Positions 13,312 to 26,573 of a stretch of DNA of 28,743 bases are shown here, piece after piece. Within the stretch, counting starts at the first letter, position 1. Each line of letters begins with the position of its first letter. Made by a program: the position numbers and the translations under genes. Source of the stretch: a virus; IMG/VR virus record IMGVR_UViG_3300012944_000171, positions 1 through 28,743 of that record, one strand, 5' to 3'. The notes below the pieces were generated by a model. The model saw only the letters and a program-made list of their open reading frames with translations, was not told the DNA's origin and made no database searches.

Positions 13312-13386
13312 AGTACCGTGGCCGAACGGTTCAGGCACACGACCGATAATCGTGCTAAGGTGGTTCGACTCCACCCGGTACTACCA
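13312..13386 (+). tRNA. tRNA-Ile (GAT), CCA encoded
   Basis: A complete cloverleaf: acceptor AGTACCG pairs exactly with CGGTACT; D arm GCC/GGC with GG in its loop; anticodon stem CACGA/TCGTG (13338-13342, 13350-13354) around loop CCGATAA; T arm GGTGG-TTCGACT-CCACC; discriminator A and encoded CCA (13384-13386). The anticodon GAT (13345-13347) reads ATC and ATT. The base before the anticodon is C, not the almost universal T33, which is unusual and may reduce function. Confidence 0.92.
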
Positions 13387-13417: not shown

Positions 13418-14227
13418 ATGCAGAGCCCATTCAGCAAGAAGAAGATAAACCAAGATTGGTTGAATAAGATTGCAGAGGAGACTGAATGTACATCCGATGC
13501 ACCGGAGTTGGCACGTTGTGACTTCCACAATCTCTTTGTCATAGACGATATGCAAAGAGGGAGAAAATACCACAAGATCTTATCCGAAGGTAATGCCACA
13601 CTAGTGGCAACAGCCTTCACTGAAGCACAGTTTCATTGTTGGAAACGTGTTCCCGATGAACCTGAGACAACCGCCATACAAAGTACAACTGATGTAGTGA
13701 CTAGTCCTGAAGAAATATTTACAGTAAAAGAAGGAAAGAAAATATCATTAGGCTTTGCCTATGATCTATCCCCTCCTGTGCGTAAGAGAGAACTTCCTCC
13801 TGCTCCGCCTATCAGCGTGAGCGAGTCTCTCGTCATCGCAATCCCCAAAGAAGATCAACTAACCACCACTGAATGGGTCGAAGCCAATAGACATCGTAAT
13901 CGTTACGATCATTGGGCTAAGATCAAAGGTGAACTGTGGAAAGTACCATCTGACCATTTCTATTCTCTTGACAAATTCATGGGAAATGGTAAAGTATTCA
14001 AACGTAGCCGAGTGTTGCTTGAAGTACCGTTGAAGATGCTATATCGCAATGGTTCGCACACTCACATCGAACGAGTTATTCCCACACAAGAAGCCTACAT
14101 GTACATGGGTGTACGTGCGTTCTGGGAACCTCAGATCGATGGAGGCTACTATTTTCAACCCATGCCCATTTACAACAACAGTAGTCTGAATAGAAAATAC
14201 TATTGCTATACCAAACTGGAGGATTAA
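13418..14227 (+). CDS. Gamma-glutamylcyclotransferase/AIG2-like protein (269 aa)
   Basis: The ATG at 13418 has GGAG eight bases upstream. The segment NLFVIDDMQRGRKYHKIL then LVATAF (about residues 38-68) resembles the YGTL-x-x-G opening of the GGCT/AIG2 fold. GELWKVPSDHFYSLDKFMG followed by FKRSRVLLEV (about 170-200) matches the family's G-x-x-Y/W-x-V, then LD-x-x-E/M-G, then Y-x-R pattern. Known members cleave gamma-glutamyl amines or dipeptides to release 5-oxoproline. The usual YG loop is replaced by ID, so activity is uncertain. Its stop is followed at once, in the same frame, by the primase-helicase, which lacks an ATG. With the possible amidotransferase upstream, glutamine or glutamyl chemistry is a tentative theme. 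Confidence 0.7.
   Translation: MQSPFSKKKINQDWLNKIAEETECTSDAPELARCDFHNLFVIDDMQRGRKYHKILSEGNATLVATAFTEAQFHCWKRVPDEPETTAIQSTTDVVTSPEEIFTVKEGKKISLGFAYDLSPPVRKRELPPAPPISVSESLVIAIPKEDQLTTTEWVEANRHRNRYDHWAKIKGELWKVPSDHFYSLDKFMGNGKVFKRSRVLLEVPLKMLYRNGSHTHIERVIPTQEAYMYMGVRAFWEPQIDGGYYFQPMPIYNNSSLNRKYYCYTKLED
14218..14222 (+). promoter_or_regulatory. Shine-Dalgarno GGAGG that selects an ACG start
   Basis: GGAGG ends five bases before an ACG codon at 14228. No ATG, GTG or TTG occurs in frame before the zinc finger of the primase-helicase, so this site points to ACG initiation, unless the TAA at 14225 is read through. Confidence 0.6.
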
Positions 14228-15757
14228 ACGAGTACAATCATTGAACAACACATTCCCTGTGACCGTTGTGGTTCTTCAGATGCTAAGTGTATTTGGGACG
14301 ACGATCATGGGTTTTGTTTCTCTTGTCAACACTATTTTCCTCCAAGGGGATCGGAGCGATCCGAAGCCAAGGAATATACATATGAGTATGTTCCTTGGCG
14401 TGGGGTAACAAGAGAGACAATGCAATTCTACGGCACCAAGACTAAAGTCGATGGTGATGGTAAACCCATTGAGATTATATTTCCTTATCCTAACAATGCT
14501 AATAAGATTAGAAAGATTGCGGATAAAGAGTTTAGAACTGAGGGTGATACAGCCAAAGCCGGTTTATTTGGTCGTGATAAATTCTCGGCCGGTAGTAGCA
14601 AGTTCGTTACTATCTGTGAAGGAGAACTCGATGCTCAATCGCTCTATCAAACTCTCCACTCTCCTGTGGTCAGCGTTCGTAGCAGTACTACTGCTGCTAG
14701 CGACGTTGCTTTGGATCGATCCTGGGTTGACTCTTTCGAGAGGATATACCTCTGCTTTGATAACGACAGAGCAGGCAAAGAAGCTTTATCACTCGTTGCC
14801 CGGTTATTCGACTATAACCGAGTATTTCAAGTAAAGCTTTCCAAAAGGAAAGATCCGAATGAATATATCCAGGCAGGTGAGGCAGCAGAGTTAAAGCATA
14901 TCTGGTGGAACTCCAAGAATTACCTGCCTGATACTATTGTTTCTTCCTTTGAAGAGTTTGAAGAAATACTAAGTACTGATCTACAGTACGGTTTCCCATA
15001 TCCGTGGCAAACACTTACGGATATGACTTATGGTATCCGAACATCGGAGTCTGTTCTTATTACTGCAATGGAAGGCGTGGGCAAGACAGAGTTCATGCAC
15101 GCCATTGAGTATAAGTTCCTAAAGGAGACTGATGAAAATGTTGCAAGTATCTTCCTCGAAGAACCAAAGCGAAGACATCTTCAGAGCATTGCGAGTCTTG
15201 AGCTCGGTAGACCTGCGCATATTCCCGCGCCTGATCTATCACAAACTGATATCATGGCTGCTGTCCGAAAAGCTATACAGACGGATAGCCGTTACCACCT
15301 GTACAACCACTTTGGGAGTGTGGATCCAGACACACTACTCGACGCAATTCGGTTTCTCCGTACTGCCCGTGGCTGTAGGCGTATCCTGTGCGACGGTATT
15401 ACTCTGGGGGTTAGCGGTCTTCAAGGAGAAGATGAGAGGAAAGCTCTCGATTACCTCACTAACAGATTAGAAATGATGGTGAAGGAATTAGACTTTTCTT
15501 TCATCTTCAGTAGCCACGTGAATGATAACTATCAAACACGTGGTTCCCGTAATACTTCTAAGGTTGCGGATATCCGTATTGATTTAACTAGGGACTTGAC
15601 CAATGCCGACAACACCATCAGAAACACCACAGATATCTCAGTCTCAAAGAACAGATTCTGTGGACGAACTGGACCTGCTGGTCGACTCTTATTTAACCCT
15701 AACACGTATTCCTACGTGGAGGCAGCCAATGACAACCAACGGGAGATGGCAGCGTGA
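14228..15757 (+). CDS. T7 gp4-like primase-helicase
   Basis: A bifunctional replication enzyme that unwinds DNA 5' to 3' and makes RNA primers. Counting ACG (14228) as residue 1, a zinc finger (HIPCDRCGSSD, then FCFSC; Cys 11, 14, 30, 33) closely matches the T7 gp4 N-terminus. It is followed by WRGVTRETMQFYG, a TOPRIM domain with EGE (near 131) and DND (near 178), Walker A GVGKT (near 285), a Walker-B-like segment ILCDG, a FIFSSH motif, and NRFCGRTG bearing the likely arginine finger. The length of 509 is close to T7 gp4 (566). An internal ATG at 14420 (residue 65) is in the same place as the start of T7 gp4B, the helicase-only form. The start codon is near-cognate; see findings. Confidence 0.93.
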   Translation, partial: TSTIIEQHIPCDRCGSSDAKCIWDDDHGFCFSCQHYFPPRGSERSEAKEYTYEYVPWRGVTRETMQFYGTKTKVDGDGKPIEIIFPYPNNANKIRKIADKEFRTEGDTAKAGLFGRDKFSAGSSKFVTICEGELDAQSLYQTLHSPVVSVRSSTTAASDVALDRSWVDSFERIYLCFDNDRAGKEALSLVARLFDYNRVFQVKLSKRKDPNEYIQAGEAAELKHIWWNSKNYLPDTIVSSFEEFEEILSTDLQYGFPYPWQTLTDMTYGIRTSESVLITAMEGVGKTEFMHAIEYKFLKETDENVASIFLEEPKRRHLQSIASLELGRPAHIPAPDLSQTDIMAAVRKAIQTDSRYHLYNHFGSVDPDTLLDAIRFLRTARGCRRILCDGITLGVSGLQGEDERKALDYLTNRLEMMVKELDFSFIFSSHVNDNYQTRGSRNTSKVADIRIDLTRDLTNADNTIRNTTDISVSKNRFCGRTGPAGRLLFNPNTYSYVEAANDNQREMAA

Positions 15758-16031
15758 AACTCCTCACTATTGCACTTGCGGCAATGTTCATATCTTTCAC
15801 TGCACATGCAGGAACTGCGAAGCAATCCGAATTGAATTGGTTAGAGACAATCATTCAAACTCTGACAGGAACGCAGGCCACGACGGAGAACCCAAAGACT
15901 ATTCATACGACCATAAGAAAAAGCCACCTCCACAAACATGGCCACCGACATGCCAGTACAATCCACAAGTCCCATGCATCTGCTGGGGTTACGAAATCCC
16001 CTGTCCACACAAAGAACGAAAAACTCTATGA
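15729..16031 (+). CDS. Cys-rich protein in a double-coded region (100 aa)
   Basis: A perfect GGAGG (15718-15722) lies six bases before the ATG at 15729, inside the end of the helicase gene. The product has CTCG and CTCRNC (about residues 19-32), a likely zinc ribbon, then a charged, Pro-rich part and a second Cys cluster, VPCICWGYEIPCPHK, near the C-terminus. Most of it is read in another frame by the secreted-protein gene at 15754. The Cys spacing and ribosome site argue that it is real. No family is recognised. Confidence 0.6.
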   Translation: MTTNGRWQRETPHYCTCGNVHIFHCTCRNCEAIRIELVRDNHSNSDRNAGHDGEPKDYSYDHKKKPPPQTWPPTCQYNPQVPCICWGYEIPCPHKERKTL

Positions 16032-16095
16032 AGAGTTCCAAATCTGGTACTACAAACAATTATTCAACCCTATGGCACCAGAGTATCAAAAATGA
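15754..16095 (+). CDS. Exported His-rich protein, GTG start (113 aa)
   Basis: GGGAG lies eight bases before the GTG at 15754. The first 19 residues (MKLLTIALAAMFISFTAHA) form a classic signal peptide, so the product should be exported to the periplasm. The mature part has a His/Lys/Thr-rich middle (SHLHKHGHRHAST) that could bind metal and an aromatic C-terminal helix. It is nested for 278 bases with the Cys-rich gene at 15729 in a different frame. There is no lipobox, so it is not an obvious spanin. Confidence 0.65.
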   Translation: MKLLTIALAAMFISFTAHAGTAKQSELNWLETIIQTLTGTQATTENPKTIHTTIRKSHLHKHGHRHASTIHKSHASAGVTKSPVHTKNEKLYEEFQIWYYKQLFNPMAPEYQK

Positions 16096-16268
16096 ACAAG
16101 CTACGACAAATTGTTGAGATTGCGCGTCTTAATATGAACGATAGAGGAGACACTACAATACCTCGATTTTACATTATGAAAGCAATTGCAACAATGGAAG
16201 ACGCTGAATTCAGAGATCTTTCTCGAATTATAAGCTTGGGATTTACGGAGGACATGCAAGATGTCTAG
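16092..16268 (+). CDS. Small helical protein (58 aa)
   Basis: The ATG at 16092 overlaps the upstream stop (ATGA). The product is a helical 58-residue protein (MNKLRQIVEIARLNMNDRGD) ending in GFTEDMQDV. It overlaps the next gene by eight bases. Protein-like composition and coupling on both sides support it. Function unknown. Confidence 0.65.
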   Translation: MNKLRQIVEIARLNMNDRGDTTIPRFYIMKAIATMEDAEFRDLSRIISLGFTEDMQDV

Positions 16269-16479
16269 TAGGCACATCCTTACGGAAAGCTCAAAGTTTC
16301 CAGGAATGTGGTTGATCTGTTATCCAGATGGAACATTGAGCGATATGCTGAATTATACAAGAGCATACGATTATATAATGGAGGTTAATAATGAATTTGC
16401 ACGAAAAGGAGAAAGAATTGGAGAACTCAGAAAACCAGTCCAACGTCGTAGCCCTAAGCGACGTAGACCGAGCGGATAG
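16261..16479 (+). CDS. Small basic protein (72 aa)
   Basis: GGAGG about nine bases before the ATG at 16261. The first 50 residues look like a small mixed fold (FPGMWLICYPDGTLSDM is strand-turn-helix). The tail is strongly basic (RKPVQRRSPKRRR). The last 89 bases are also read by the next gene in another frame. A possible nucleic-acid-binding tail; no family is recognised. Confidence 0.65.
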   Translation: MSSRHILTESSKFPGMWLICYPDGTLSDMLNYTRAYDYIMEVNNEFARKGERIGELRKPVQRRSPKRRRPSG

Positions 16480-16717
16480 GTATCCAGATTGGTTGACACC
16501 TATGAACAGACTTAGTAAATTTGTAGTTAAAGAACGGGATCGATTTCATCCTAGTCCGTTTTTACCATCCTACACAAAGATTATTAATCATGAAGAGTGT
16601 GTAGAATTGATAGAGCATCACCCTAGTGGGGACACAATACAATATGCTATTGCTAAGGCATTTTGTGTTAAATATATGTTGGTAGAGATAGTAGATGAAT
16701 ATACTGGGACCGTATAA
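16391..16717 (+). CDS. Protein of unknown function (108 aa)
   Basis: TGGAGGT shortly before the ATG at 16391 gives a strong start inside the upstream gene. The N-terminal 30 residues are Glu/Asn/Lys-rich. The remainder has FHPSPFLPSYTKII and a helix around residues 65-95. The next small gene begins inside its last codons. No motif is recognised. Confidence 0.65.
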   Translation: MNLHEKEKELENSENQSNVVALSDVDRADRYPDWLTPMNRLSKFVVKERDRFHPSPFLPSYTKIINHEECVELIEHHPSGDTIQYAIAKAFCVKYMLVEIVDEYTGTV

Positions 16718-16838
16718 TGCTGCTGATTGGAAACTGCTGTTAATATTGAAGAATAACTTCAAGAAGAAGCATTTATACGCTACAGAAACAGCATTAGTGA
16801 AAGAAAAGCAATTATATTTAAAAATAATACATAAATAG
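16695..16838 (+). CDS. Small Lys/Leu-rich protein (47 aa)
   Basis: The ATG at 16695 overlaps the upstream gene by 23 bases, with a GAGAT-like ribosome site ahead. The product is short, basic and helical (DWKLLLILKNNFKKKHLY). It ends this run of overlapping genes; a 169-base gap with a promoter and repeats follows. Function unknown. Confidence 0.5.
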   Translation: MNILGPYNAADWKLLLILKNNFKKKHLYATETALVKEKQLYLKIIHK

Positions 16839-16850
16839 TTAAAATAATGC

Positions 16851-16879
16851 TTGACAAAGGATATTTTATACTGTAGGTT
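16851..16879 (+). promoter_or_regulatory. Possible promoter for the polymerase operon
   Basis: A perfect TTGACA (16851-16856) is followed 17 bases later by TAGGTT (16874-16879), a poor -10 box with TG directly before it. Position, just before the polymerase operon and after the previous gene run, supports a promoter. Confidence 0.5.
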
Positions 16880-16933
16880 AACACCTTCTTCTTTTCCCTT
16901 TTTCTTCTTACAATGAAAATAAGATAGATATAA

Positions 16934-17010
16934 CAGCCGGTATATAAGAGGCGTAATATAACCGCCGATAACCCAAGAGGCGTAATACAGCCGGATAAGG
17001 AGGCGTAGTG
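16934..17010 (+). repeat. Three tandem AAGAGGCGTAATA-type repeats
   Basis: AAGAGGCGTAATA occurs exactly at 16946-16958 and 16975-16987. A variant, AAGGAGGCGTAGTG, at 16997-17010 serves as ribosome site and GTG start of the next gene. Each is preceded by a GCCGG- or GCCGAT-type word (CAGCCGG at 16934 and 16988). Iterons, operator sites and duplicated leader sequences are all possible. Confidence 0.65.
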
Positions 17011-17175
17011 TTAAGATTATTTAAGATTACTGATCAAGACATAATAGCTTTAAGAGAAGTTATTGAAGGTTGTTATTTCTTTGAACCTCAAGATAAGATT
17101 AAAGACTACTATGATAAAGTAGATTACTTTAAACAGTTATTTGCTAAAGATATATTTGAAGAAGATTGTATTTGA
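17008..17175 (+). CDS. Small acidic protein before the polymerase (55 aa)
   Basis: AAGGAGG four bases before a GTG at 17008 gives a 55-residue, Asp/Tyr/Phe-rich helical protein (MLRLFKITDQDIIALRE). Its stop overlaps the TTG start of the DNA polymerase by four bases, so polymerase translation is probably coupled to it. It may act mainly as a leader cistron or as a polymerase partner; no family is recognised. Confidence 0.65.
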   Translation: MLRLFKITDQDIIALREVIEGCYFFEPQDKIKDYYDKVDYFKQLFAKDIFEEDCI

Positions 17176-19109
17176 GAGTAGTTATTGATATAGAAGCCAA
17201 TGGTAAAGATAACCCTACTAAGATATGGGTTATCTGTTGCTTGGATATCGACACTGGTGAACTACATACCTTCAGGAGAGTCAGTGATGATCCCGTACAG
17301 AAAGAAAAGTTTCTGGATTTTAGTAAGTGCGTTGATACTTGGATTGGCCATAATATTATCGCTTATGACCTCCCCGTTCTCTCCTCTCTTCTTTCTCTTC
17401 AAACTCCTCCTATTAATTGTAATCGGTGCATTGACACTCTTATTGTTAGCAAACTTAATAATTACTCCAGAAGACAGGGACACTCTCTAGAGTCTTATGG
17501 AGAAGAGCTAAACTACCCCAAGAACCTCTTCTCCGACTGGTCCAAGTACTCTCAAGAACTGGAGGATCGCTGTGCAACAGACGTTAGACTTGGTCTACTG
17601 GTTTACAATGCTCTGCTCAATAGTTACATTAAGCATAGCTGCAATAAGTCCGCAATCACTCTCGAACAAGAGTTTCAGCAGGATTGCCTGGAGCTTAGCA
17701 ATACTGGCTTTGGGTTTGCCACTCCTAAATGCCATGTTCTTCTAGAGAAGGTAACCAAGGAACTTAAGGAATTAGACGATGACATCGGACGATCCTTTCC
17801 TCCAAGACTTTATTGCATTCGTGAAATCACACCGAAGTACACCAAATACGGGACTCTTAATAGAACGGATTTCAGGTGGGTACCAAGTGGTGATTTATCG
17901 GAGTACAATGGAGGCTCGTTTTGTAGATGTGTATTCAGACCATTCAATCCCAGCTCTCATAAACAAATTATTAGCGTCTTGTCTAGTGCTGGATGGCATC
18001 CAACAAGCAAAACAAAAACACACATTGAGGCCCTCCGCAACAGACAGACTCTCCCAAGCAGGCTTGAGGAGATACAAAAGACCGGGTGGAAGATCAACGA
18101 AGAAAACTTAAGTACTTTACCTTCTACTGCTCCTGGTCCTGCCCGTGCCCTTGCTAGGCGCATCCTCCTTGAGTCCAGACGTCGAACCCTAACTGAATGG
18201 TTGGGGTTAGTATCTAACGACTCGGACCGCATTCATGGACATTTCTTATCCATAGGCGCCTGGACTCATAGGATGGCTCACCAGAAGCCAAACATGGCTA
18301 ATATTCCCAATATCCATGATCTGGATGGAAAGGTTAAGTTGTTGGGAGCAGAGATGCGTGCCTTGTTTATCGCCCCGAAAGGTAGACTTCTAGTCGGGGT
18401 TGATGCTGAAGGAATTCAGCTCCGCATCTTTGCTCACTACATCGACGATGAAGAATTTACTTACGCCCTAGTCCATGGAAAGAAGGAAGACAAAAGTGAC
18501 CCACACAGCCTCAACCAGCGAATATTGGGTAGTGTATGTCGAAGTAGGGCAGCTGCCAAGCGCTTCGTCTATGCGCTTCTCCTCGGTGCGGGAATTGGAA
18601 AACTTTCTGAGATTCTTGGATGTGAACGAACACAGGCGGAAAGTGCTCTTACGAAACTTATGGAGCGTTACACCGGCTTCGACTACCTTAAGAGAACTAC
18701 CATTCCGAGGGATGCTCGTAGAGGCTGGTTTACAGGCTTGGATGGACGACGCGTTAATATACCTGGAGTGGACGTGGGCGAGAGAAGGCATCTGGCTATG
18801 TCTGGGTATCTTCAGTCGGGAGAAGCCATTATAATGAAGAAAGCAAGATTAAGTTGGAAGAAAAAGATTGACTTAATCTTTCCAAAGGAATATAACATAA
18901 AGTTAGTTAACTTCGTACATGATGAGTGGCAAACAGAAACACCTAATGATTTAATGATTGCTCATCAAGTAGCGGAAATACAATGTCAATCTCTAGTAGA
19001 AACAGGAGTAGAACTTAAACTAAAGTGTCCATTAGCAGGTAGCTATGGAGAGAGCCACAATGACCCGAAGACCTGGACGATTGGTAGTAACTGGAAAGTC
19101 ACTCATTAG
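17172..19109 (+). CDS. T7-like family A DNA polymerase
   Basis: The replicative polymerase with 3'-5' proofreading. Counting the TTG at 17172 as residue 1, the exonuclease motifs are VIDIEAN (D6, E8), GHNIIAYD (about 59-66) and CATDVRL (D137). Polymerase motifs: A, GVDAEGIQLR (D411); B, RAAAKRFVYALLLGAG (about 459-474, with the fingers Lys and Tyr); C, FVHDEW (H583, D584, E585). All are in T7 gp5 order. It has 645 residues against 704 in T7 gp5, so some thumb or loop sequence is shorter. No ATG is available; TTG at 17172 has GAAGAAG seven bases ahead, and TTG at 17166 is the alternative. T7 gp5 uses host thioredoxin for processivity; whether this one does is not visible. Confidence 0.95.
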   Translation: MRVVIDIEANGKDNPTKIWVICCLDIDTGELHTFRRVSDDPVQKEKFLDFSKCVDTWIGHNIIAYDLPVLSSLLSLQTPPINCNRCIDTLIVSKLNNYSRRQGHSLESYGEELNYPKNLFSDWSKYSQELEDRCATDVRLGLLVYNALLNSYIKHSCNKSAITLEQEFQQDCLELSNTGFGFATPKCHVLLEKVTKELKELDDDIGRSFPPRLYCIREITPKYTKYGTLNRTDFRWVPSGDLSEYNGGSFCRCVFRPFNPSSHKQIISVLSSAGWHPTSKTKTHIEALRNRQTLPSRLEEIQKTGWKINEENLSTLPSTAPGPARALARRILLESRRRTLTEWLGLVSNDSDRIHGHFLSIGAWTHRMAHQKPNMANIPNIHDLDGKVKLLGAEMRALFIAPKGRLLVGVDAEGIQLRIFAHYIDDEEFTYALVHGKKEDKSDPHSLNQRILGSVCRSRAAAKRFVYALLLGAGIGKLSEILGCERTQAESALTKLMERYTGFDYLKRTTIPRDARRGWFTGLDGRRVNIPGVDVGERRHLAMSGYLQSGEAIIMKKARLSWKKKIDLIFPKEYNIKLVNFVHDEWQTETPNDLMIAHQVAEIQCQSLVETGVELKLKCPLAGSYGESHNDPKTWTIGSNWKVTH

Positions 19110-19266
19110 TTGTCAAGGAAAGAAAAGATATAGATCGGAAGGTGAAGCAAGAAATGCAAGAGCTAGATACCTTAAACAATATGGAGAAAACGGAACTAAC
19201 GTTTACCACTGTCCAGTCTGTTTTGGCTGGCACTTAACAAGAAGGCAATATAAAAGAAAGAAATGA
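19060..19266 (+). CDS. WHLT-type zinc-ribbon protein (68 aa)
   Basis: The C-terminus carries VYHCPVCFGWHLTRRQYKRKK, and an earlier Cys lies in SCQGKKRYRSEGEA. This C...C-P-x-C-x-x-W-H-L-T pattern is a widespread small phage/bacterial zinc ribbon of unknown role. The basic tail suggests nucleic-acid binding. A GGAGAGAG region precedes the ATG at 19060; an ATG at 19045 would add five residues. It overlaps the end of the polymerase gene. Confidence 0.8.
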   Translation: MTRRPGRLVVTGKSLISCQGKKRYRSEGEARNARARYLKQYGENGTNVYHCPVCFGWHLTRRQYKRKK

Positions 19267-19433
19267 AAACATATACATTTGAATTTGAATATATGGTACC
19301 AGAGTTTGCTACTGTGACTGTGGAGACCAAAGAAGATGAGATGCCAAAGATTAAGGATTTGGCAATGGCAGAGTTTACCCGGATGTACCCAGAAGCCATT
19401 GATCCGGAGATTGTTAATACTACCAGTGACTGA
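19263..19433 (+). CDS. Small acidic protein before SSB (56 aa)
   Basis: The ATG at 19263 overlaps the previous stop (ATGA). An acidic, 56-residue protein with a strand-rich first half (YTFEFEYMVPEFATVTVE) and a helical second half (KIKDLAMAEFTRMYPE). Its last bases overlap the GTG start of the SSB gene. Function unknown. Confidence 0.7.
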   Translation: MKTYTFEFEYMVPEFATVTVETKEDEMPKIKDLAMAEFTRMYPEAIDPEIVNTTSD

Positions 19434-19908
19434 ATACGTTTATTTAAGTGGTAAGTGTAAGTGGTGTAAGACTACTGCACCTAATCAATTCGGAGATTGG
19501 AAGACTGACCTTTATCCAGATGATAAATCTTTAACAAAGATTATGGAACTTAAGGCAAGAGGTCTTAAGAATACTCTGAAGAAAGATGAAGATGGGCCGT
19601 TCATAGCCTTCAAACGTCCCATGACAAAGATGATGAAAGGCAGAGCAGTTAACTTTACAAATCCAGTAGTGCTTAATAAAGATGGAGTTCCTATTAATGA
19701 AGCAATAGGCAATGGTTCGGAAGTTACACTTAAACTATTGATTTATCCATTTATGTCTCCTGGTGGTGCCAAAGGTATTGGTGCTAGATGGGAGTCAGTG
19801 CGAGTAGATAACTTAGTTCCCTGGGAACTGAAAGACTTCGCAGAACCAGCCGAAAGAGAAGCTATCTTTGGACTTAAAGAAGCACCTAAAGGTGATTATA
19901 ACTTTTAA
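19426..19908 (+). CDS. gp2.5-like single-stranded DNA-binding protein
   Basis: The pattern VYLSGKCKWCKTTAPNQFGDWKTDLY, then ARGLKNTLKKDEDGPFIAFKRP, then IGNGSEVTLKLLIYPF and VRVDNLVPWE follows the OB-fold ssDNA-binding family of T7-like and cyanophages. It would coat unwound strands and bind polymerase and helicase. The C-terminus ends in a phenylalanine (KGDYNF), as in T7 gp2.5, whose terminal Phe contacts partners, though the acidic tail is short. The frame is open from 19336, but homology begins near the GTG at 19426, which overlaps the previous stop by eight bases. It lies directly after the polymerase, as expected for a replication protein. Confidence 0.8.
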   Translation: MTEYVYLSGKCKWCKTTAPNQFGDWKTDLYPDDKSLTKIMELKARGLKNTLKKDEDGPFIAFKRPMTKMMKGRAVNFTNPVVLNKDGVPINEAIGNGSEVTLKLLIYPFMSPGGAKGIGARWESVRVDNLVPWELKDFAEPAEREAIFGLKEAPKGDYNF

Positions 19909-19924
19909 TAATAAGGAGAATAAC

Positions 19925-20134
19925 ATGTATCTTACTACAGAGAAGATTAACATCAACGATGCGGACTCAACACGTTCTCACTATGTGAGAGCATGGTCCA
20001 CCCGAGAAGCAGCTGAGGATTATGCTAAGCGTAAGGCTCAGGCTAACAATGGTGCACCCGAGTCCCAGGTATTCATGCTTATTTCTACTACCAAGACTTC
20101 AGGTGTCTATGAGTCTGAGGTTAAACTAGTCTAA
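19925..20134 (+). CDS. Small protein, paralogue 1 of 3 (69 aa)
   Basis: AAGGAG six bases before the ATG at 19925 sets the start within a longer open frame. The fold looks like strand-helix-strand: TREAAEDYAKRKAQANN helix, then QVFMLISTTK strand. The next two genes share the same plan: x-E-A, an Ala-rich helix, a strand ending in a basic residue, and an acidic end. Function unknown. Confidence 0.75.
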   Translation: MYLTTEKININDADSTRSHYVRAWSTREAAEDYAKRKAQANNGAPESQVFMLISTTKTSGVYESEVKLV

Positions 20135-20156
20135 AAACAAGAAGGAAACAAGACCA

Positions 20157-20366
20157 ATGTCTTTACCCGTTAAAGAACAATGGATGGATGGTGATTGTTT
20201 TAATCGGTTTAACACCAGAGAAGAAGCCATTGCATCTGCTACTGCACATGCACAGCGTGGACAGTATGATGTGCTGATCTGGAGGTCCGTGGCTGTTGCC
20301 CGGTATCCGTTTTCCGCAATCACTATTGAGGAGATTGTACCAGCGGTGGCACAAGCCTCAAGTTAA
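20157..20366 (+). CDS. Small protein, paralogue 2 of 3 (69 aa)
   Basis: AAGGAAAC before the ATG at 20157. It contains TREEAIASATAHAQRG, then DVLIWRSVAVARYP and TIEEIVP. These align by eye with gene 3 (DAVTKKAAMAAKN, YLVLKAIKRVSIP, TITDLV) and more loosely with gene 1. They are probably tandem duplicates after the SSB gene. Function unknown. Confidence 0.75.
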   Translation: MSLPVKEQWMDGDCFNRFNTREEAIASATAHAQRGQYDVLIWRSVAVARYPFSAITIEEIVPAVAQASS

Positions 20367-20383
20367 TGTAGAAAGTATTCCAA

Positions 20384-20686
20384 ATGTCTAATTCATTTGA
20401 AGATTTTTGGGATGAAGATGAAGATTATTTTTGTGAGTGTTGCGAATGTTTCACTTGCATTTGTTCAAAAGAGGAGACTAACATGACTATTGATTTCACG
20501 AAACCAGTTTACCTTGCCAGCTGCTTTGACGCTTGTGGCTTGACGAATGATCTGGATGCAGTCACCAAGAAGGCAGCCATGGCTGCGAAGAACGATCGAG
20601 AAGGGGATGATTATCTCGTCCTTAAGGCGATCAAACGTGTAAGCATTCCAATGACGGATGCCACCATTACTGATCTTGTTGCCTGA
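20384..20686 (+). CDS. Small protein, paralogue 3 of 3, with acidic Cys-rich extension (100 or 67 aa)
   Basis: GAGGAG six bases before an ATG at 20483 marks a good internal start, giving a 67-residue copy of the paralogue family (MTIDFTKPVYLASCF). The frame is open back to an ATG at 20384, adding a very acidic stretch (EDFWDEDEDYFCECCECF) with seven cysteines. Either the two frames fused after losing a stop, or both forms are made. The extension is unlike the rest and may bind metal. Confidence 0.7.
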   Translation: MSNSFEDFWDEDEDYFCECCECFTCICSKEETNMTIDFTKPVYLASCFDACGLTNDLDAVTKKAAMAAKNDREGDDYLVLKAIKRVSIPMTDATITDLVA

Positions 20687-20826
20687 CTACTCACCTAGTT
20701 AGGCATCTCCTGCCAGTTACAAAGAACCTGGTAGAGCCCGCGGTCAAAGGTTTCAATACCAATGTGCGCGGCGGGCACAGTTTATTTATAGTTAGGCAAT
20801 TTGCCCACTCACTTGGAGTAACGATC
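20687..20826 (+). other. 140-base gap with short hairpins
   Basis: GCCCGC (about 20737) can pair with GCGGGC (about 20771), enclosing GGT/ACC (GGTTTCAATACC). CCAG/CTGG (20713-20732) forms a smaller stem. No gene or T run is seen. It leads into the gene at 20827. Confidence 0.4.
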
Positions 20827-21069
20827 ATGTCTATCTTTCGCACAACTCACCTACACAATAACGATAAGATAGAGAAGTTCCATCCCTCCAAGGAAGAGGC
20901 GGTGACCTTCTTGACTATCAAAGCTTTCGAAGACTTTCTGGGAAACATTCCCACTAAAGGAATGAACTTAGAAAAGAGAGCTGACACTGCAAGACAACTT
21001 CTTCCTGCTCTTCTAGATAAACTAGATAAAATTGAAGAAAGCATTCAACAATTTGATCTTCAGAAATAG
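20827..21069 (+). CDS. Helical protein before the RNA region (80 aa)
   Basis: A GGAG ahead of the ATG at 20827 selects it over the upstream 20764 start. The N-terminus is His/Asn-rich. Residues 20-80 are helical, with a Leu-rich amphipathic end (ARQLLPALLDKLDKIEESIQQ) likely to form a coiled coil. It is the last protein gene before the 1.6-kb non-coding stretch. Function unknown. Confidence 0.7.
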   Translation: MSIFRTTHLHNNDKIEKFHPSKEEAVTFLTIKAFEDFLGNIPTKGMNLEKRADTARQLLPALLDKLDKIEESIQQFDLQK

Positions 21070-21079
21070 TTTGTTACTC

Positions 21080-22680
21080 AGCCACTAGTCGCATATATCA
21101 CCGGGTGGTAATAATCCCTGGTAATACTGATCAGGGTACCGAGTGCAACTCAGCCTAGAAAAGTCCCCGTGTCCGATACTATACGTTCGATGCCACGTTC
21201 CGGATTGAAACGTTAGGAAACTTCCGCAGACGAAGATACGTATAAGTCGTAACTTGGGAACCTGGGTGAGTGGTGATGGAGTGGTGACCATCCTAGTGAG
21301 GAGAGACCCGGCACATACCGTAAAGTATGTCCTTAAAGGTGTGAAAGCAGACTGAGGCTTCTCAATCCATTTAGCTGCAGGATACAAAAAGCAGCATAGA
21401 AGGGCTACATCAGTACAAGTACTGGTTCGAGTCCAGTCCTACTCGGCTGACAGATACCGAGAGTGTGGCGCAACAACTGGCAGACGCAACTGATGATGCC
21501 ACCCGCAACGTCACCTGTGGAGGCTAAAAACGGAGACAGTAGGACACACACCCCTATGTCCGGTGGCAGACGATCAGCGTGATTGCATCCTTGATGGTCT
21601 CCAACGCCTAATCCGGGGCTTCTGGCCCAAGGTCAATCAAATATAGGGTAGTGTCATCCACGCCTCACGTGGAGTAGCTTTGAATACCAGTCTCATACGT
21701 AACAACTTGTGAGGATGTACTCATGAGCCTGGAACGAGGTATAGTATGAGACAAGTAAGATACACATCGTTCTTCGGACGGAGAGTAGGTTCCGAGATGG
21801 TTCAAATCCATCAAAGGTCGTTGGGCGGCCAGATGCTTTTCCTCAATGGCAGCACGAAAGAGCTTGGTAAAGGAACCGAGGCCAGTCCTAAGCGTCTTCT
21901 CTTGGAGTCCCCAGGAAATAAACTGACTCGTAAGTTAATCACATTGGCAGAAGTGAGACAGTCTTGTGTACCAGGCCACCGCTGAAAGAATGCGGACTGG
22001 AGTAGACAGCATCAGATTGGTGCGCATCAAGGCCACCTAGGTGCTTCCTCTATTGTTTGCAAGGTACCTCTCAAGGATGCATGCAGGGTGCAACCTGTGT
22101 ATTCTGACTACCAATCAGAATGTGGTGAGACGAACGACGTTGAAGAGGTGAAGAAGAGTGTGATCCGAAAGCAAGGGTTTCTTAGGTGTAGACTGTTAGG
22201 GTTCATTTACCCTTCTGGTTGTTGTTTCCCTCCTTTGAAGAGCAGAGCAACATTAATGATCACCGATGAACAATGCCCATTCCAAGCAGCAACGATCAGT
22301 TATTATCCCTGGTCCACGACACAGTATGCCGTGTGCTATAGTGTGCAAACTCACATTGACCGTCTTGTCCTAGATGTAGGAAAGAATGGTGACGAGCAGT
22401 AGAATGTGTAGCCAATGTAGCGGTAGGCGTAGTTAACTCCGGCTTTCTTACATGGCTGGTTATCCCTATTAGCGAACGAGAAGTATCAGGCAACTGAGTA
22501 CGCTGACTGATTCGGTCCGGAAAGGTATTCTACATAAGTCTCTTGTGAGATATTCTTACTTCTAGTTACCCAGCTCCGGCTATCTACCGCAGGCTGGACC
22601 ATCCTAGAGATTGGAGGTGTTGGATGAGGTATAAGTATATTACTCCACCTATCCGCCCCCCTTAAGTTCATCAATACGCC
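21080..22680 (+). ncRNA. Candidate giant structured RNA (about 1.6 kb)
   Basis: No credible gene exists here, yet exact short stems are everywhere: CCCTG/CAGGG (21116, 21132); GATGG/CCATC (21275, 21288); ACATAC/GTATGT (21313, 21325); GCTGC/GCAGC (21374, 21391); TCCAC/GTGGA (21657, 21669); GTCTCATAC/GTATGAGAC (21690, 21744); GGTTCC/GGAACC (21788, 21872); CCAG-CCGC/GCGG-CTGG (21971-22000); ATTCTGA/TCAGAAT (22101, 22115); CCAGC/GCTGG (22570, 22593). Two hairpins look like tRNA T arms (ACTGG-TTCGAGT-CCAGT at 21421 and GATGG-TTCAAAT-CCATC at 21796), but no cloverleaf surrounds either. The CCTACTC after the first (21438) is complementary to GAGTAGG at 21783. Size and phage context recall the GOLLD and ROOL ornate RNAs; identity is not established. 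Confidence 0.65.
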
Positions 22681-22697
22681 GAAGAGAGGAGGATTCC

Positions 22698-22967
22698 ATG
22701 TTCGGCATGTATCCATACACACAACCTCCGGTGAAATCTATGAAAGAACAAATAGAAGAAGCGGAGTTTCTCTTAGACTTTATGAAAAAGAAATTCGAAA
22801 AGAAAGATGATAAAGGACCAACTAAGTTGAAAGATAAGAAGTTCTCCCTATGGGAAACTGGTTTAGTATTGGCAGTAGTTAGTTTTATCTGTGCAGTTCC
22901 TATAGTAACATATCAATTACATTCCCTATTAATGTTGAAACAGGCGATGGATGCGGTGATGAAATGA
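22698..22967 (+). CDS. Single-span membrane protein with helical head (89 aa)
   Basis: AGGAGG five bases before the ATG at 22698. Residues 14-50 form a charged helix or coiled coil (EEAEFLLDFMKKKFEKK). Residues about 53-78 are one transmembrane helix (GLVLAVVSFICAVPIVTY). The basic head suggests an N-in orientation. It overlaps the next gene in an ATGA junction. It could be a membrane-associated factor of the phage; no lysis motif is recognised. Confidence 0.75.
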   Translation: MFGMYPYTQPPVKSMKEQIEEAEFLLDFMKKKFEKKDDKGPTKLKDKKFSLWETGLVLAVVSFICAVPIVTYQLHSLLMLKQAMDAVMK

Positions 22968-23173
22968 AAATGACTGTTGTTCATCGAAGATGGCGATACG
23001 TAGATAATCGTGGACTAAAATTAGTGGCAACAAGAGAATACAAACGAATAATGAAACTTTGGAATATGACTAATTTAATTTACTTTCACCATTATATCTG
23101 TGAAATTAACCGTTATGATGGTGCTCCTTATGATGTAATACATATTGAAATCGATACACACTCTAGTACCTGA
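22964..23173 (+). CDS. Basic protein rich in Arg, Tyr and His (69 aa)
   Basis: ATGA overlap with the membrane-protein gene. A basic 69-residue protein (HRRWRYVDNRGLK) with aromatic residues and a mixed fold. The last 29 bases overlap the nuclease gene that follows. Function unknown. Confidence 0.65.
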   Translation: MKMTVVHRRWRYVDNRGLKLVATREYKRIMKLWNMTNLIYFHHYICEINRYDGAPYDVIHIEIDTHSST

Positions 23174-24011
23174 CGTTTATGCACTCTTGCAAACAAAAGG
23201 ATGGTACAATGGCGATCTTACTGAATACTTTACGACGGTATGCAATCAAAGGCTTCGATCCCAATGGGACAACAACTCAGATATCAGTGGCAGCTTGCGA
23301 CTCTCGCGAATGGGAGATTGTTGTCCAAGAGCTCTCTGGTATTCGGTCCATAAACCAGGAGAAGCTGAACCATTGCCTCCGTGGGCTAACTTCAAATATA
23401 CCTACGGACATATAATCGAAGCATTAGCCTTAACCCTAGCTAAGGCGGCTGGACATAGAGTCGAGGGAGAACAGGATGAGCTAAATGTCTTGGGTATCAA
23501 AGGTCATCGCGACGCTATTATTGACGGCTGTGTGGTGGACGTTAAATCTGCTACAAGCTTCAAAGTGGCAGAAAGCAAACGGGGATCTTTGGAGAAGAAC
23601 GACAGTTTTGGTTACCTCGATCAGCTTGATGGTTATGTACTTGGATCTGCTAATGATCCTCTGGTTACTGTAAAAGATAAAGGATATCTCTGGTTCATCG
23701 ATAAAACTTTGGGGCACATGAATGTCTACGAACATACCGCGCGATTTGGACGAATACGGGATCGCATTAACGAATATAAGATCATCACTGAGTCACGCAC
23801 AGCGCCTACTTGTACTTGCAGAACGAGACCTTCAGGTGCGTCCGGAAACATCGAGCTTGATGTTAAGGCAAGCTATTCTGCGTATAAACACGTCTGCTTT
23901 CCAACTCTTAGAACTTTCCTCTACGCTGACGGACCTAAATATCTCACTCATGTTGTTCGGCGTCCTGAAGTCCCAGAAATCGACAGACAAGGAAGAATAG
24001 TCTATCACTAG
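23145..24011 (+). CDS. PD-(D/E)XK exonuclease, RecB/Cas4-like (288 aa)
   Basis: Motifs in order: LRLSRMGDCCPRALWY (about 51-66), typical of this nuclease group; YGHIIE (88-92); GHRDAIIDG (120-128) with the catalytic Asp; VDVKS (131-135) with the D-x-K signature. Two Cys in CTCR and a later Cys in the C-terminal part might hold a metal. Such proteins act as phage recombination or degradation exonucleases, and this one may replace T7 gp6. The only usual start in frame is a TTG at 23145; the upstream stop is at 23136, and no good ribosome site is seen. The stop overlaps the endonuclease I frame by eight bases. Confidence 0.85.
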   Translation: MKSIHTLVPDVYALLQTKGWYNGDLTEYFTTVCNQRLRSQWDNNSDISGSLRLSRMGDCCPRALWYSVHKPGEAEPLPPWANFKYTYGHIIEALALTLAKAAGHRVEGEQDELNVLGIKGHRDAIIDGCVVDVKSATSFKVAESKRGSLEKNDSFGYLDQLDGYVLGSANDPLVTVKDKGYLWFIDKTLGHMNVYEHTARFGRIRDRINEYKIITESRTAPTCTCRTRPSGASGNIELDVKASYSAYKHVCFPTLRTFLYADGPKYLTHVVRRPEVPEIDRQGRIVYH

Positions 24012-24354
24012 AAATAAATTCGAGGAAAGAACTCGACAGCATTTAAAAAGAAAGAAGATAAACTTTGATTACGAAGTCTCTAAAATACCTTACATCATCA
24101 CGGGGAACTATATCCCTGATTTTACTATTGTCACTAGCGACGGCAGTGTTTGGTTTCTTGAATGCAAAGGACATTTCAGAGCAACAGATAAGCGGAAGCT
24201 TGCTGCTGTTAAACGGTGTAATAGCAATCTTGATATCCGAATTCTCTTTTATCGACGAGTTGAGAAAAACATCCGATGGGCCGAGAAACATGGATTCCCC
24301 TGGGCAATAGAAACAATCCCTACGGAGTGGTTAAATGTACACACTGGATCTTAA
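24004..24354 (+). CDS. T7 endonuclease I (gp3)-like Holliday-junction resolvase (116 aa)
   Basis: Counting ATC (24004) as residue 1: NKFEERTRQHLKRKKINFDYE, YIPDF (Asp 39) and FLECKG (Glu 53, Lys 55) match the catalytic E, D, E-x-K of T7 endonuclease I, and LDIRILFYR and IPTEWL match its C-terminal half. It would cut branched DNA during replication and packaging. No ATG, GTG or TTG exists in frame before the catalytic residues (stop at 23998). ATC at 24004, ten bases after an AAGGA and overlapping the nuclease stop, is the best start. At 116 residues it is shorter than T7 gp3 (149), which carries extra ends. Confidence 0.88.
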   Translation: MTRNKFEERTRQHLKRKKINFDYEVSKIPYIITGNYIPDFTIVTSDGSVWFLECKGHFRATDKRKLAAVKRCNSNLDIRILFYRRVEKNIRWAEKHGFPWAIETIPTEWLNVHTGS

Positions 24355-24496
24355 TAAAGAAGAATTTGCTCTAATTCGACTTGCTGTAGCCAAATCACTA
24401 GACACTCTAGCGAAAGAAGATTTATCTTCTTTATTATCTATAATTAGTAAATTTACAAAACTCCTTAAAGAGGATAAGAGCAATGAAACCATATAA
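24335..24496 (+). CDS. Small helical protein (53 aa)
   Basis: GGAG seven bases before the ATG at 24335, within the end of the endonuclease gene. A 53-residue, Leu/Lys/Glu-rich helical protein (FALIRLAVAKSLDTLAKEDL). It overlaps the next gene by 14 bases. Possibly a partner or coiled-coil peptide; function unknown. Confidence 0.65.
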   Translation: MYTLDLNKEEFALIRLAVAKSLDTLAKEDLSSLLSIISKFTKLLKEDKSNETI

Positions 24497-24716
24497 AGGT
24501 GAGATACACAACTGGCGTAAAGTTGCTTGTAACTTCGGAGGATGGCCAACTACTCCTTTCGGAGCTACTGGTTATTTCTGTATAAGAGGAAATCCGGTAG
24601 GGCATCCTACGTTTGTCGCTTGGATACTAACCTCTCGTGTTATTTCAATAGATGAGAAGGGTATGTGTGAAACACAGAACTCAATGTATAAACTAATAGG
24701 ATTGGAACAATGTTAA
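24483..24716 (+). CDS. Small Gly/aromatic protein (77 aa)
   Basis: GAGGA before the ATG at 24483. The sequence is Gly-, Trp- and Pro-rich at first (NFGGWPTTPFGATGYF), then a short strand and a C-terminal helix ending in Cys. The stop overlaps the next ATG at 24710. No family is recognised. Confidence 0.65.
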   Translation: MKPYKGEIHNWRKVACNFGGWPTTPFGATGYFCIRGNPVGHPTFVAWILTSRVISIDEKGMCETQNSMYKLIGLEQC

Positions 24717-24877
24717 AATTTCTTGAAGCTTTTATGTTTTATATATATGGAGTAGCATCTGGAGTTGCTATAGCAATACTAACATTTATAGGTACTCATA
24801 ATTGTTACTCAACATTAGGAGGAGCAGGACTTATCTGCTCTACACATAGTTTTAGTTTTGATTTCTTATTCCATTGA
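24710..24877 (+). CDS. Small membrane protein (55 aa)
   Basis: The ATG at 24710 lies inside the last codons of the upstream gene. Residues 8-28 are one hydrophobic helix (YIYGVASGVAIAILTF), followed by a short Ser/Gly/Cys-rich segment and an aromatic tail. It is probably inserted in the inner membrane. Function unknown. Confidence 0.6.
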   Translation: MLKFLEAFMFYIYGVASGVAIAILTFIGTHNCYSTLGGAGLICSTHSFSFDFLFH

Positions 24878-25037
24878 TGAAATAAACAAAGTGCTCCAGA
24901 CCTATACCTTTGAAGATATAGCGGAGCACAATGATGTACTTATTGAAGACGTACTTGAAATGTTGATTAAAGAATACCATTGGGAATTACCTAAGCCCGC
25001 GCCGCTTTGCGGCGACGACGCGAGCTATGCTCGCTAG
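24858..25037 (+). CDS. Small helical protein with palindromic 3' end (59 aa)
   Basis: A helix-rich sequence (YTFEDIAEHNDVLIEDVLEMLIKEY) resembles small helix-turn-helix-like phage proteins that end in a LP turn. The last 14 residues are encoded by two GC-rich hairpins, as in the gene at 6201. The start is unclear: TTG 24858 and GTG 24891 are in frame, neither with a ribosome site. The tail may be an inserted palindrome that now supplies the stop codon. Confidence 0.55.
   Translation: MISYSIDEINKVLQTYTFEDIAEHNDVLIEDVLEMLIKEYHWELPKPAPLCGDDASYAR
25001..25034 (+). repeat. Two trinucleotide-loop GC hairpins
   Basis: GCCGC-TTT-GCGGC (25001-25013) and GCGAGC-TAT-GCTCGC (25020-25034) lie back to back in an AT-rich neighbourhood, at the end of one gene and just before the ribosome site of the next. 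Their design resembles GCCGCC-AAA-GGCGGC at 13255. Confidence 0.7.
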
Positions 25038-25050
25038 AGGAGCCATTACA

Positions 25051-25308
25051 ATGAGTTTCTATGCAAATGTAACGTTTAAAACACCTTCTAAGATTTCAGC
25101 AGGAAAATATGAAGGTAAATCTTGTGATGATTTATATAATATAAAAGAAGCAACAGATGAATTAGAAAATAATGTTGAACTTGCAAAGAATAAATTAGAT
25201 AATATTATGAAAGGTTGGGCGTTAAATAGAACAGACATTTCATATGGTTTCAACGGTTCTCCTAAATCTGGGTGGGAATTATGGTATCAAAGGTATTATG
25301 ACAAATGA
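25051..25308 (+). CDS. Small protein of unknown function (85 aa)
   Basis: GAGGAG eight bases before the ATG at 25051 overrules the longer frame from 25027. It has an N-terminal strand (FYANVTFKTPS), then a helix with many Asn, Glu and Lys (EATDELENNVELAKNKLD), then a Trp/Tyr-rich end. Its stop overlaps the next ATG. Function unknown. Confidence 0.7.
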   Translation: MSFYANVTFKTPSKISAGKYEGKSCDDLYNIKEATDELENNVELAKNKLDNIMKGWALNRTDISYGFNGSPKSGWELWYQRYYDK

Positions 25309-25451
25309 AACATCCGCAAGATAAAGCACAAAGGCTTTACATAAATGATCAAAAGAAAAGAAAGAAAGCTAACAGAGGAAGTAAAGAAGACGTTCATGAT
25401 GGATCTCTTGACTCCCTTCGTTCCGACGATGAAGCAGAACGAGACAATTAA
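25305..25451 (+). CDS. Small charged protein (48 aa)
   Basis: ATGA overlap at 25305-25308. A 48-residue Lys/Arg- then Asp/Ser-rich protein, probably disordered. More than two thirds of it is read in another frame by the gene at 25345, so one of the two may be spurious; the overlap junction favours translation of this frame too. Confidence 0.45.
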   Translation: MKHPQDKAQRLYINDQKKRKKANRGSKEDVHDGSLDSLRSDDEAERDN

Positions 25452-25518
25452 AGATTTGTCCATTCGAACAACTGCCAATCATTTACATATTACTTATTTA
25501 ATAGAGGAGGAGGTGTAA
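25345..25518 (+). CDS. Small helical protein (57 aa)
   Basis: The ATG at 25345 starts within the 48-residue gene. The product is basic, then hydrophobic-helical (TFMMDLLTPFVPTMK), with an end resembling a helix-turn-helix half (IKDLSIRTTANHLHITYLI). The ribosome site is weak. The GGAGGAGG near its stop serves the next gene. Confidence 0.55.
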   Translation: MIKRKERKLTEEVKKTFMMDLLTPFVPTMKQNETIKDLSIRTTANHLHITYLIEEEV

Positions 25519-25522
25519 TACT

Positions 25523-25756
25523 ATAGTCCATAATTATGCAAAAGAAAACAAGTGGGAAGACTCTACTGTGCAAGTAAAGCGTAGAGAGGCGCGAAATAAA
25601 GCTCGTCTCCACGCAATGAAAGCAGGGAAAGTCCACAAAGGAGATATGAAGGAGTTAGATCATGTTGGATACCACCGCACTGGTTCGCTCGATCGCGTCC
25701 CCACCCGCGTTGTCTCACGACACGCCAATCGTATCAGACAACCTCCCCGTCACTGA
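25523..25756 (+). CDS. HNH-endonuclease-like protein, probable ATA start (77 aa)
   Basis: The core VKRREARNKARLHAMKAGKVHKGDM, then ELDHV, then RVVSRHANR follows small phage HNH-type proteins (R-x-x-R-x-x-A-R, GKV-x-KGD, x-x-DH, N/T-R-V-V-S-R-x-x-N-R). The DH is present; the usual Gly-Asn turn is changed to a His-Arg-Thr-Gly stretch, so cutting activity is uncertain. Protein-like sequence extends upstream of the GTG at 25568 to an ATA at 25523, which lies ten bases after a strong GGAGGAGG; no ATG/GTG/TTG is available there. Role: self-propagating or packaging-associated nicking, by analogy. Confidence 0.7.
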   Translation: MVHNYAKENKWEDSTVQVKRREARNKARLHAMKAGKVHKGDMKELDHVGYHRTGSLDRVPTRVVSRHANRIRQPPRH

Positions 25757-25985: not shown

Positions 25986-26573
25986 GTGAATAAACAAAAG
26001 AAAGAACAATTAAGGAGAAAGATGCATAAGCATAACGATGGTTGTATAACAACTAAGACTATTACCACTAGTAATGAACTAGGTTCACTGAGGACTACAT
26101 TTATTCCAAATCTGATTAACTTAGTTAATTTAACACCTCAATTTCCAGAGGTTACGAAACAGGAGAAGAATATGTATTTCAGTAAAGATACCCAGGACTA
26201 CCAGGCACGTAATCGTCTCTATTATCGTGCACAGGATGCCACCCAAGAGCATGAGAATCATCTTCGTGATGTGTATCATCTGAATGATACTGACATTACT
26301 ACGTGGTCTCAGGAAGATGCAATCCAAGCACTTAAGGATGGCAAGTTTGTCTTCCGTCGGCCGGAGGATGCAAAGAAACCCGGTAATTTCCATTACTATG
26401 GTCTCGATGTTCGATATCGTGATCCTTCAAAGCCGGCTGATGAGGTTGGTTTTAATACCGCAAGGAATACTCTTCGTGAGTCCTTCGAGATGGTGGTCGA
26501 TCACATCGCTGTCGCAGACCCCAAGGATGCTCTGAAGAAGGTCGATTCCTTCCGTGAACACAAGTTTCATTAA
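25986..26573 (+). CDS. Two-part protein with possible internal start (195 or 133 aa)
   Basis: AAGGAG precedes a GTG at 25986. A second good ribosome site (AGGAGA) precedes an in-frame ATG at 26172. The first 62 residues are AT-rich in DNA and Lys/Asn/Thr-rich. From residue 63 on, codons become GC-richer and the protein is charged and helical (YQARNRLYYRAQDATQEHENHLRD), with a central FVFRRPEDAKKPG turn. Long and short forms may both be made, or two genes have fused. Function unknown. Confidence 0.7.
   Translation: MNKQKKEQLRRKMHKHNDGCITTKTITTSNELGSLRTTFIPNLINLVNLTPQFPEVTKQEKNMYFSKDTQDYQARNRLYYRAQDATQEHENHLRDVYHLNDTDITTWSQEDAIQALKDGKFVFRRPEDAKKPGNFHYYGLDVRYRDPSKPADEVGFNTARNTLRESFEMVVDHIAVADPKDALKKVDSFREHKFH

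Follow-up and report, generated by a model that had tools for sequence, protein, structure and literature searches.

This locus raises the question of whether the replication genes of a phage start on codons other than ATG, and what such starts would do. The window, that is the whole stretch of DNA analysed, is a virus record of 28.7 kb (IMG/VR IMGVR_UViG_3300012944_000171). The initial annotation had reported six non-ATG starts and all six were found: ACG for the primase-helicase (14228), TTG for the DNA polymerase (17172), GTG for the single-stranded DNA-binding protein (SSB, 19426), TTG for a Cas4/RecB-like nuclease (23145), ATC for endonuclease I (24004) and ATA for an ORF called HNH-like (25523). 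Only three of the six, ACG, ATC and ATA, are near-cognate codons; TTG and GTG are ordinary bacterial start codons.

The replication module and its relatives

The replication module of the window comprises a primase-helicase, a family A polymerase, a gp2.5-like SSB, a Cas4-domain exonuclease and a T7-type endonuclease I, and 79 IMG/VR relatives of it were gathered. The two close relatives, G001 (50.8 kb) and G002 (23.7 kb), each come from another assembly, and only G001 covers the endonuclease I and HNH-like starts. More distant kin are the Zobellviridae/Cobavirinae roseophages (SIO1, CRP-4/5, ICBM1-3, P12053L), whose polymerase, primase, Cas4-like nuclease and endonuclease I modules are homologous to those of the window. 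In those checked, however, polymerase and primase begin with ATG, where the window has TTG and ACG.

The assignment of endonuclease I to the T7 type follows from a match to Pfam PF05367 (E-value 1.7e-15, 57.4 bits for a gathering score of 29.1). The HNH label of the ORF at 25523 found no support: the ORF had no Pfam hit, hence no HNH profile match, and corresponds to PHROG 4590, of unknown function. No relative was found in a search with the 195-aa ORF at 25986.

Start codons in the window

The features at the primase start are the following:
13418..14227, plus strand: ORF of unknown function (family 6) upstream of the primase; its stop TAA (14225-14227) abuts the ACG, in the same frame
14193..14298, plus strand: conserved block of 106 nt covering the upstream stop, the Shine-Dalgarno (SD) motif and the ACG; three phages compared together show a single difference in it
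14218..14222, plus strand: SD motif GGAGG, 5 nt before the ACG; GGAGGA duplex of -9.3 kcal/mol
14228..15757, plus strand: primase-helicase, ACG start, 509 codons
14420..14422, plus strand: first internal ATG of the primase ORF, kept in both close relatives

The first ATG, GTG or TTG of the primase ORF is codon 65, downstream of a zinc finger whose sequence begins within about ten codons of the ACG. Fifty-four homologs having a canonical start align into the stretch before codon 65, and the ACG AGT ACA ATC of the window aligns with ATG AGT AAA ATT of a relative (L005). The ACG and its context are identical in G001 and G002, hence in three of the three closest phages, window included. The 106-nt block around it is the longest conserved run in these three phages, which agree at only 72% of their jointly aligned sites, and it compares with a maximum of 69 over 2000 codon permutations. 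Recent recombination, as an alternative, could explain this conservation. RNA folding over the primase start revealed nothing unusual (z-score of -0.04). Speculatively, the ATG at 14420 might serve as the start of a helicase-only form of the protein.

The other two near-cognate starts lie further downstream:
23145..24011, plus strand: Cas4/RecB-like nuclease, beginning with a TTG that lies within the 3' end of the preceding ORF (stop 23171-23173)
23988..23994, plus strand: SD-like CAAGGAA, 9 nt before the ATC; -5.4 kcal/mol
24004..24354, plus strand: endonuclease I; the ATC start precedes the Cas4-like stop TAG (24009-24011) by 5 nt
25345..25518, plus strand: small ORF upstream of the HNH-like ORF; its stop TAA (25516-25518) is separated from the ATA by 4 nt
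25507..25515, plus strand: strong SD motif GAGGAGGTG, 7 nt before the ATA; -13.0 kcal/mol
25523..25756, plus strand: HNH-like ORF (PHROG 4590), ATA start

Between its two bounding stops the endonuclease I ORF (24001-24354) contains no ATG, GTG or TTG at all; the ATC is its second codon, and ATC ACT AGA AAT aligns with TTG CCT AGA AAC of a relative (L024). The HNH-like ORF has none of the three canonical codons before codon 22, and its start, from ATA GTC CAT onwards, aligns codon for codon with ATG GTT CAT AAC TAT in another (L033). Both codons are identical in G001, which makes each conserved in two of the two closest phages covering the gene, window included. Three of the features anticipated for attenuation by a near-cognate start were observed: no canonical start before conserved coding sequence, a plausible SD motif and a conserved codon.

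The two remaining starts are those of the polymerase and the SSB:
17172..19109, plus strand: family A DNA polymerase; its TTG shares bases with the TGA of ORF 17008-17175 (TTGA)
19426..19908, plus strand: gp2.5-like SSB, GTG overlapping the end of ORF 19263-19433

A second in-frame TTG lies at 17166, and the one at 17172 is that which aligns with the relatives. The polymerase starts with TTG in G002 and with ATG in G001, so that this TTG is not strictly maintained. The expectation that non-ATG codons would be conserved in close relatives holds for ACG, ATC and ATA, which are retained and not replaced by ATG, and only in part for the polymerase. As a separate observation, the conserved run that ranks second in length in the three phages (19398-19469) is located at the SSB GTG and at the 3' end of the upstream ORF that overlaps it.

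Near-cognate starts across the clade

We surveyed 1154 homolog-supported ORFs in 78 contigs. An ORF was flagged when its first ATG, GTG or TTG, if any, came 12 codons or more into the conserved region while at least 3 homologs had one nearby. A laxer missing-start flag, which marked 217 ORFs, was discarded as over-inclusive because the alignments overrun. The strict flag marked 35 of the 1154 ORFs, fragments among them; those set aside on inspection as fragments or frameshifts were L054, the L080 polymerase fragment and the old SIO1 sequence. After inspection, about 18 of the 288 ORFs of replication families were flagged (9 primases, 3 polymerases, 3 endonucleases I, 2 HNH-like and 1 Cas4), versus 1 of 213 in ten structural families (including tail fibre, internal virion proteins, capsid, portal and terminase), these being plain counts in which relatedness is not corrected for. 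The single structural exception is a tail-appendage ORF on the G008 contig (the genome of locus L033), with ATC or ATT behind GAGGA.

Near-cognate cases elsewhere in the clade include CTG twice and ATA once for the polymerase, ATA for endonuclease I and ATA twice for Cas4. The Cas4 of G004, in which ATA stands at the column of the relatives' ATG, was added by hand. Where placement is best, the codon is AUN, CUG or ACG, and not AAG or AGG. The SD motif is weak in the primases of L006 and L026 and modest in the L037 polymerase and the G012 Cas4, and consequently not every case is secure. On the primase tree the near-cognate label needs six changes, and well-supported branches make five of these unavoidable; judged from this tree, near-cognate primase starts arose at least 5-6 times independently within the clade.

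The TTG and GTG starts are also far commoner in polymerase, primase, Cas4 and endonuclease I than in structural genes. Non-ATG starts amount to 119 of 220 in these four families versus 54 of 213 in the structural ones (Fisher p about 1e-9, uncorrected for relatedness; the 'NONE' class of this tally is unreliable for long structural proteins). SSB genes are mostly ATG-started throughout the clade. Among 14 marine isolates no credible near-cognate case was detected, only old sequencing errors and artefacts. The primase of Roseobacter phage CRP-9 was rejected as an isolate lacking a start, since an ordinary GTG stands behind AAGGAGG and the annotation is simply too short.

Arrangement at upstream stops

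In translational coupling, a ribosome that terminates on one gene goes on to initiate on the following one. The layout found is the one that coupling calls for, with starts that overlap or adjoin the stop of the upstream gene: in all clade cases but one, this stop lies within -9 to +20 nt of the near-cognate codon. Start and stop overlap exactly in five cases, four as ATAA and one as CTGA. In a broad survey of gene starts ATAA was not enriched over CTAA, TTAA or GTAA, so we do not propose a special motif and take the form of the overlap as no more than suggestive.

Proposed mechanism and known systems

We consider it likely that primase, endonuclease I and the HNH-like ORF use near-cognate starts, that initiation there is SD-driven and coupled to the upstream gene, and that the weak codons limit enzyme dose. 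The ordinary initiator fMet-tRNA, on ordinary ribosomes, would initiate at ACG, ATC and ATA with the aid of the SD motif, and ribosomes that terminate on the upstream gene, at the start codon or only a few nucleotides from it, would provide coupled initiation or re-initiation. Near-cognate codons pairing imperfectly with the initiator tRNA, little protein would be made, and the catalytic replication enzymes would be kept to small amounts compared with neighbouring genes. For the polymerase and the Cas4-like nuclease, TTG may have the same effect in a milder form. The initial annotation had suggested such tuning through weak, coupled initiation, and the comparative data fit it: the conserved start columns, SD motifs, adjacent upstream stops, repeated origins, enrichment in replication genes and mainly ATG-started SSB genes. 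As far as sequence comparison goes, they point to initiation at these codons that would be weak and coupled, with low dose as the probable selected outcome.

Comparable systems are documented in cellular genes and plasmids. AUN starts are known in infC (AUU in E. coli, AUA in S. aureus), pcnB (AUU), ccpN (AUA) and cvfC1 (AUU) (PMC13009471 and references in it), and in S. aureus reporters AUU and AUA behind extended SD motifs yield about 10% of AUG (PMC13009471). These genes resemble those of the window in having an AUN start behind an SD motif, but they are not phage replication genes, and infC is subject to IF3 feedback. IF3 represses non-canonical start codons, among them the GTC of Streptomyces sigR (PMC5472188). 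The parallel with our proposal is that, within a coupled operon, the dose of a single protein depends on a near-cognate start; sigR differs in its GTC codon, in encoding a sigma factor and in being the first gene of its pair. The plasmid RepFIB rep gene, widely misannotated, has a CTG start with a GGAGG ribosome-binding site and makes just enough Rep (PMC11983097). It shares with the window genes a replication function, a near-cognate start and a good ribosome-binding site, whereas it is a single plasmid initiator gene, uses CTG and was tested by mutation. PMC2268962 describes re-initiation in E. coli as a process that depends on SD and IF3.

Alternative explanations

The main remaining rival is tolerated drift: coupling to the upstream gene would leave the identity of the start codon under little selection, and weak codons would persist or arise by chance. 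Most near-cognate starts do sit in a coupled layout, their origins are scattered over the primase tree and the ATAA overlaps show no overall enrichment; if coupling relaxes selection on the start codon, a closely similar pattern would result with no need of tuning. It accounts poorly, however, for the ACG block being the longest DNA run conserved in common by three phages, and structural genes, often also near upstream stops, mostly keep ATG. On balance we regard drift as unlikely, though well ahead of the explanations that follow.

Recoding would fuse the replication ORFs to the upstream protein, by stop readthrough for the primase or frameshifting for endonuclease I. The window primase is indeed in frame with the upstream ORF, a single TAA between them, and endonuclease I overlaps the Cas4-like gene. 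Yet among 32 relatives the frame relation between upstream gene and primase takes all three values (18, 7 and 7), which argues against such fusions; in addition, other relatives have ordinary starts at the primase position and SD motifs sit directly before the near-cognate codons. Frameshift or readthrough, which the initial annotation had named as a possible refutation, is thus very unlikely.

The same annotation had also offered an unusual initiation mechanism. An altered initiator tRNA, IF3 or ribosome, at the level of phage or host, could let near-cognate codons serve generally, and it is true that two lineages (the window group and G004) have three near-cognate genes each and that G001 and G004 come from one metagenome. 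However, since the structural genes of the same genomes retain canonical starts and ARAGORN found no initiator-like tRNA (the tRNA-Ile(GAU) of the window has an A1-U72 pair), we judge this slightly less probable still; moreover, these codons are known to work weakly on ordinary ribosomes. That assembly or sequencing errors destroyed ordinary starts is hardly credible, even for metagenome contigs with a relative (L054) showing frameshift-like damage, because identical codons occur in contigs of different assemblies with synonymous divergence around them.

Returning to near-cognate starts as a limit on enzyme dose, an extension that we hold to be improbable is a shared translational brake, by which primase, endonuclease I and others would depend through these starts on IF3 level or upstream translation. 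Were it true, the host initiation state would time the onset of replication and the ultraconserved block at the primase start would be part of the switch.

Near-cognate starts are rare and usually curiosities of a single gene. In this single phage clade they have appeared independently and repeatedly among replication genes, and phage enzyme dosing at initiation thereby becomes testable. Our literature search retrieved no report of near-cognate starts in phage replication genes, although one may still exist. For annotation, gene callers limited to ATG, GTG and TTG would drop the primase zinc finger (the first 64 codons) and miss endonuclease I entirely.

Additional observations

The annotated primase of phage CRP-9 (L155 7259) is about 60 codons short, the GTG lying upstream. 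In the window, a tRNA-Ile(GAU) was identified at 13312-13386 on the plus strand (Rfam, 55 bits), for which the close relatives showed no counterpart at the corresponding position. Its anticodon loop is CCGATAA, in which C33 replaces the almost universal U33. It was the sole credible Rfam match over the window and over an ORF-poor stretch at 21070-22690. The latter, about 1.6 kb with few long ORFs, holds several GGTTCGAGTCC-like tRNA-style T-loop sequences, called by neither ARAGORN nor Rfam, and is roughly 75% identical in G001 and G002.
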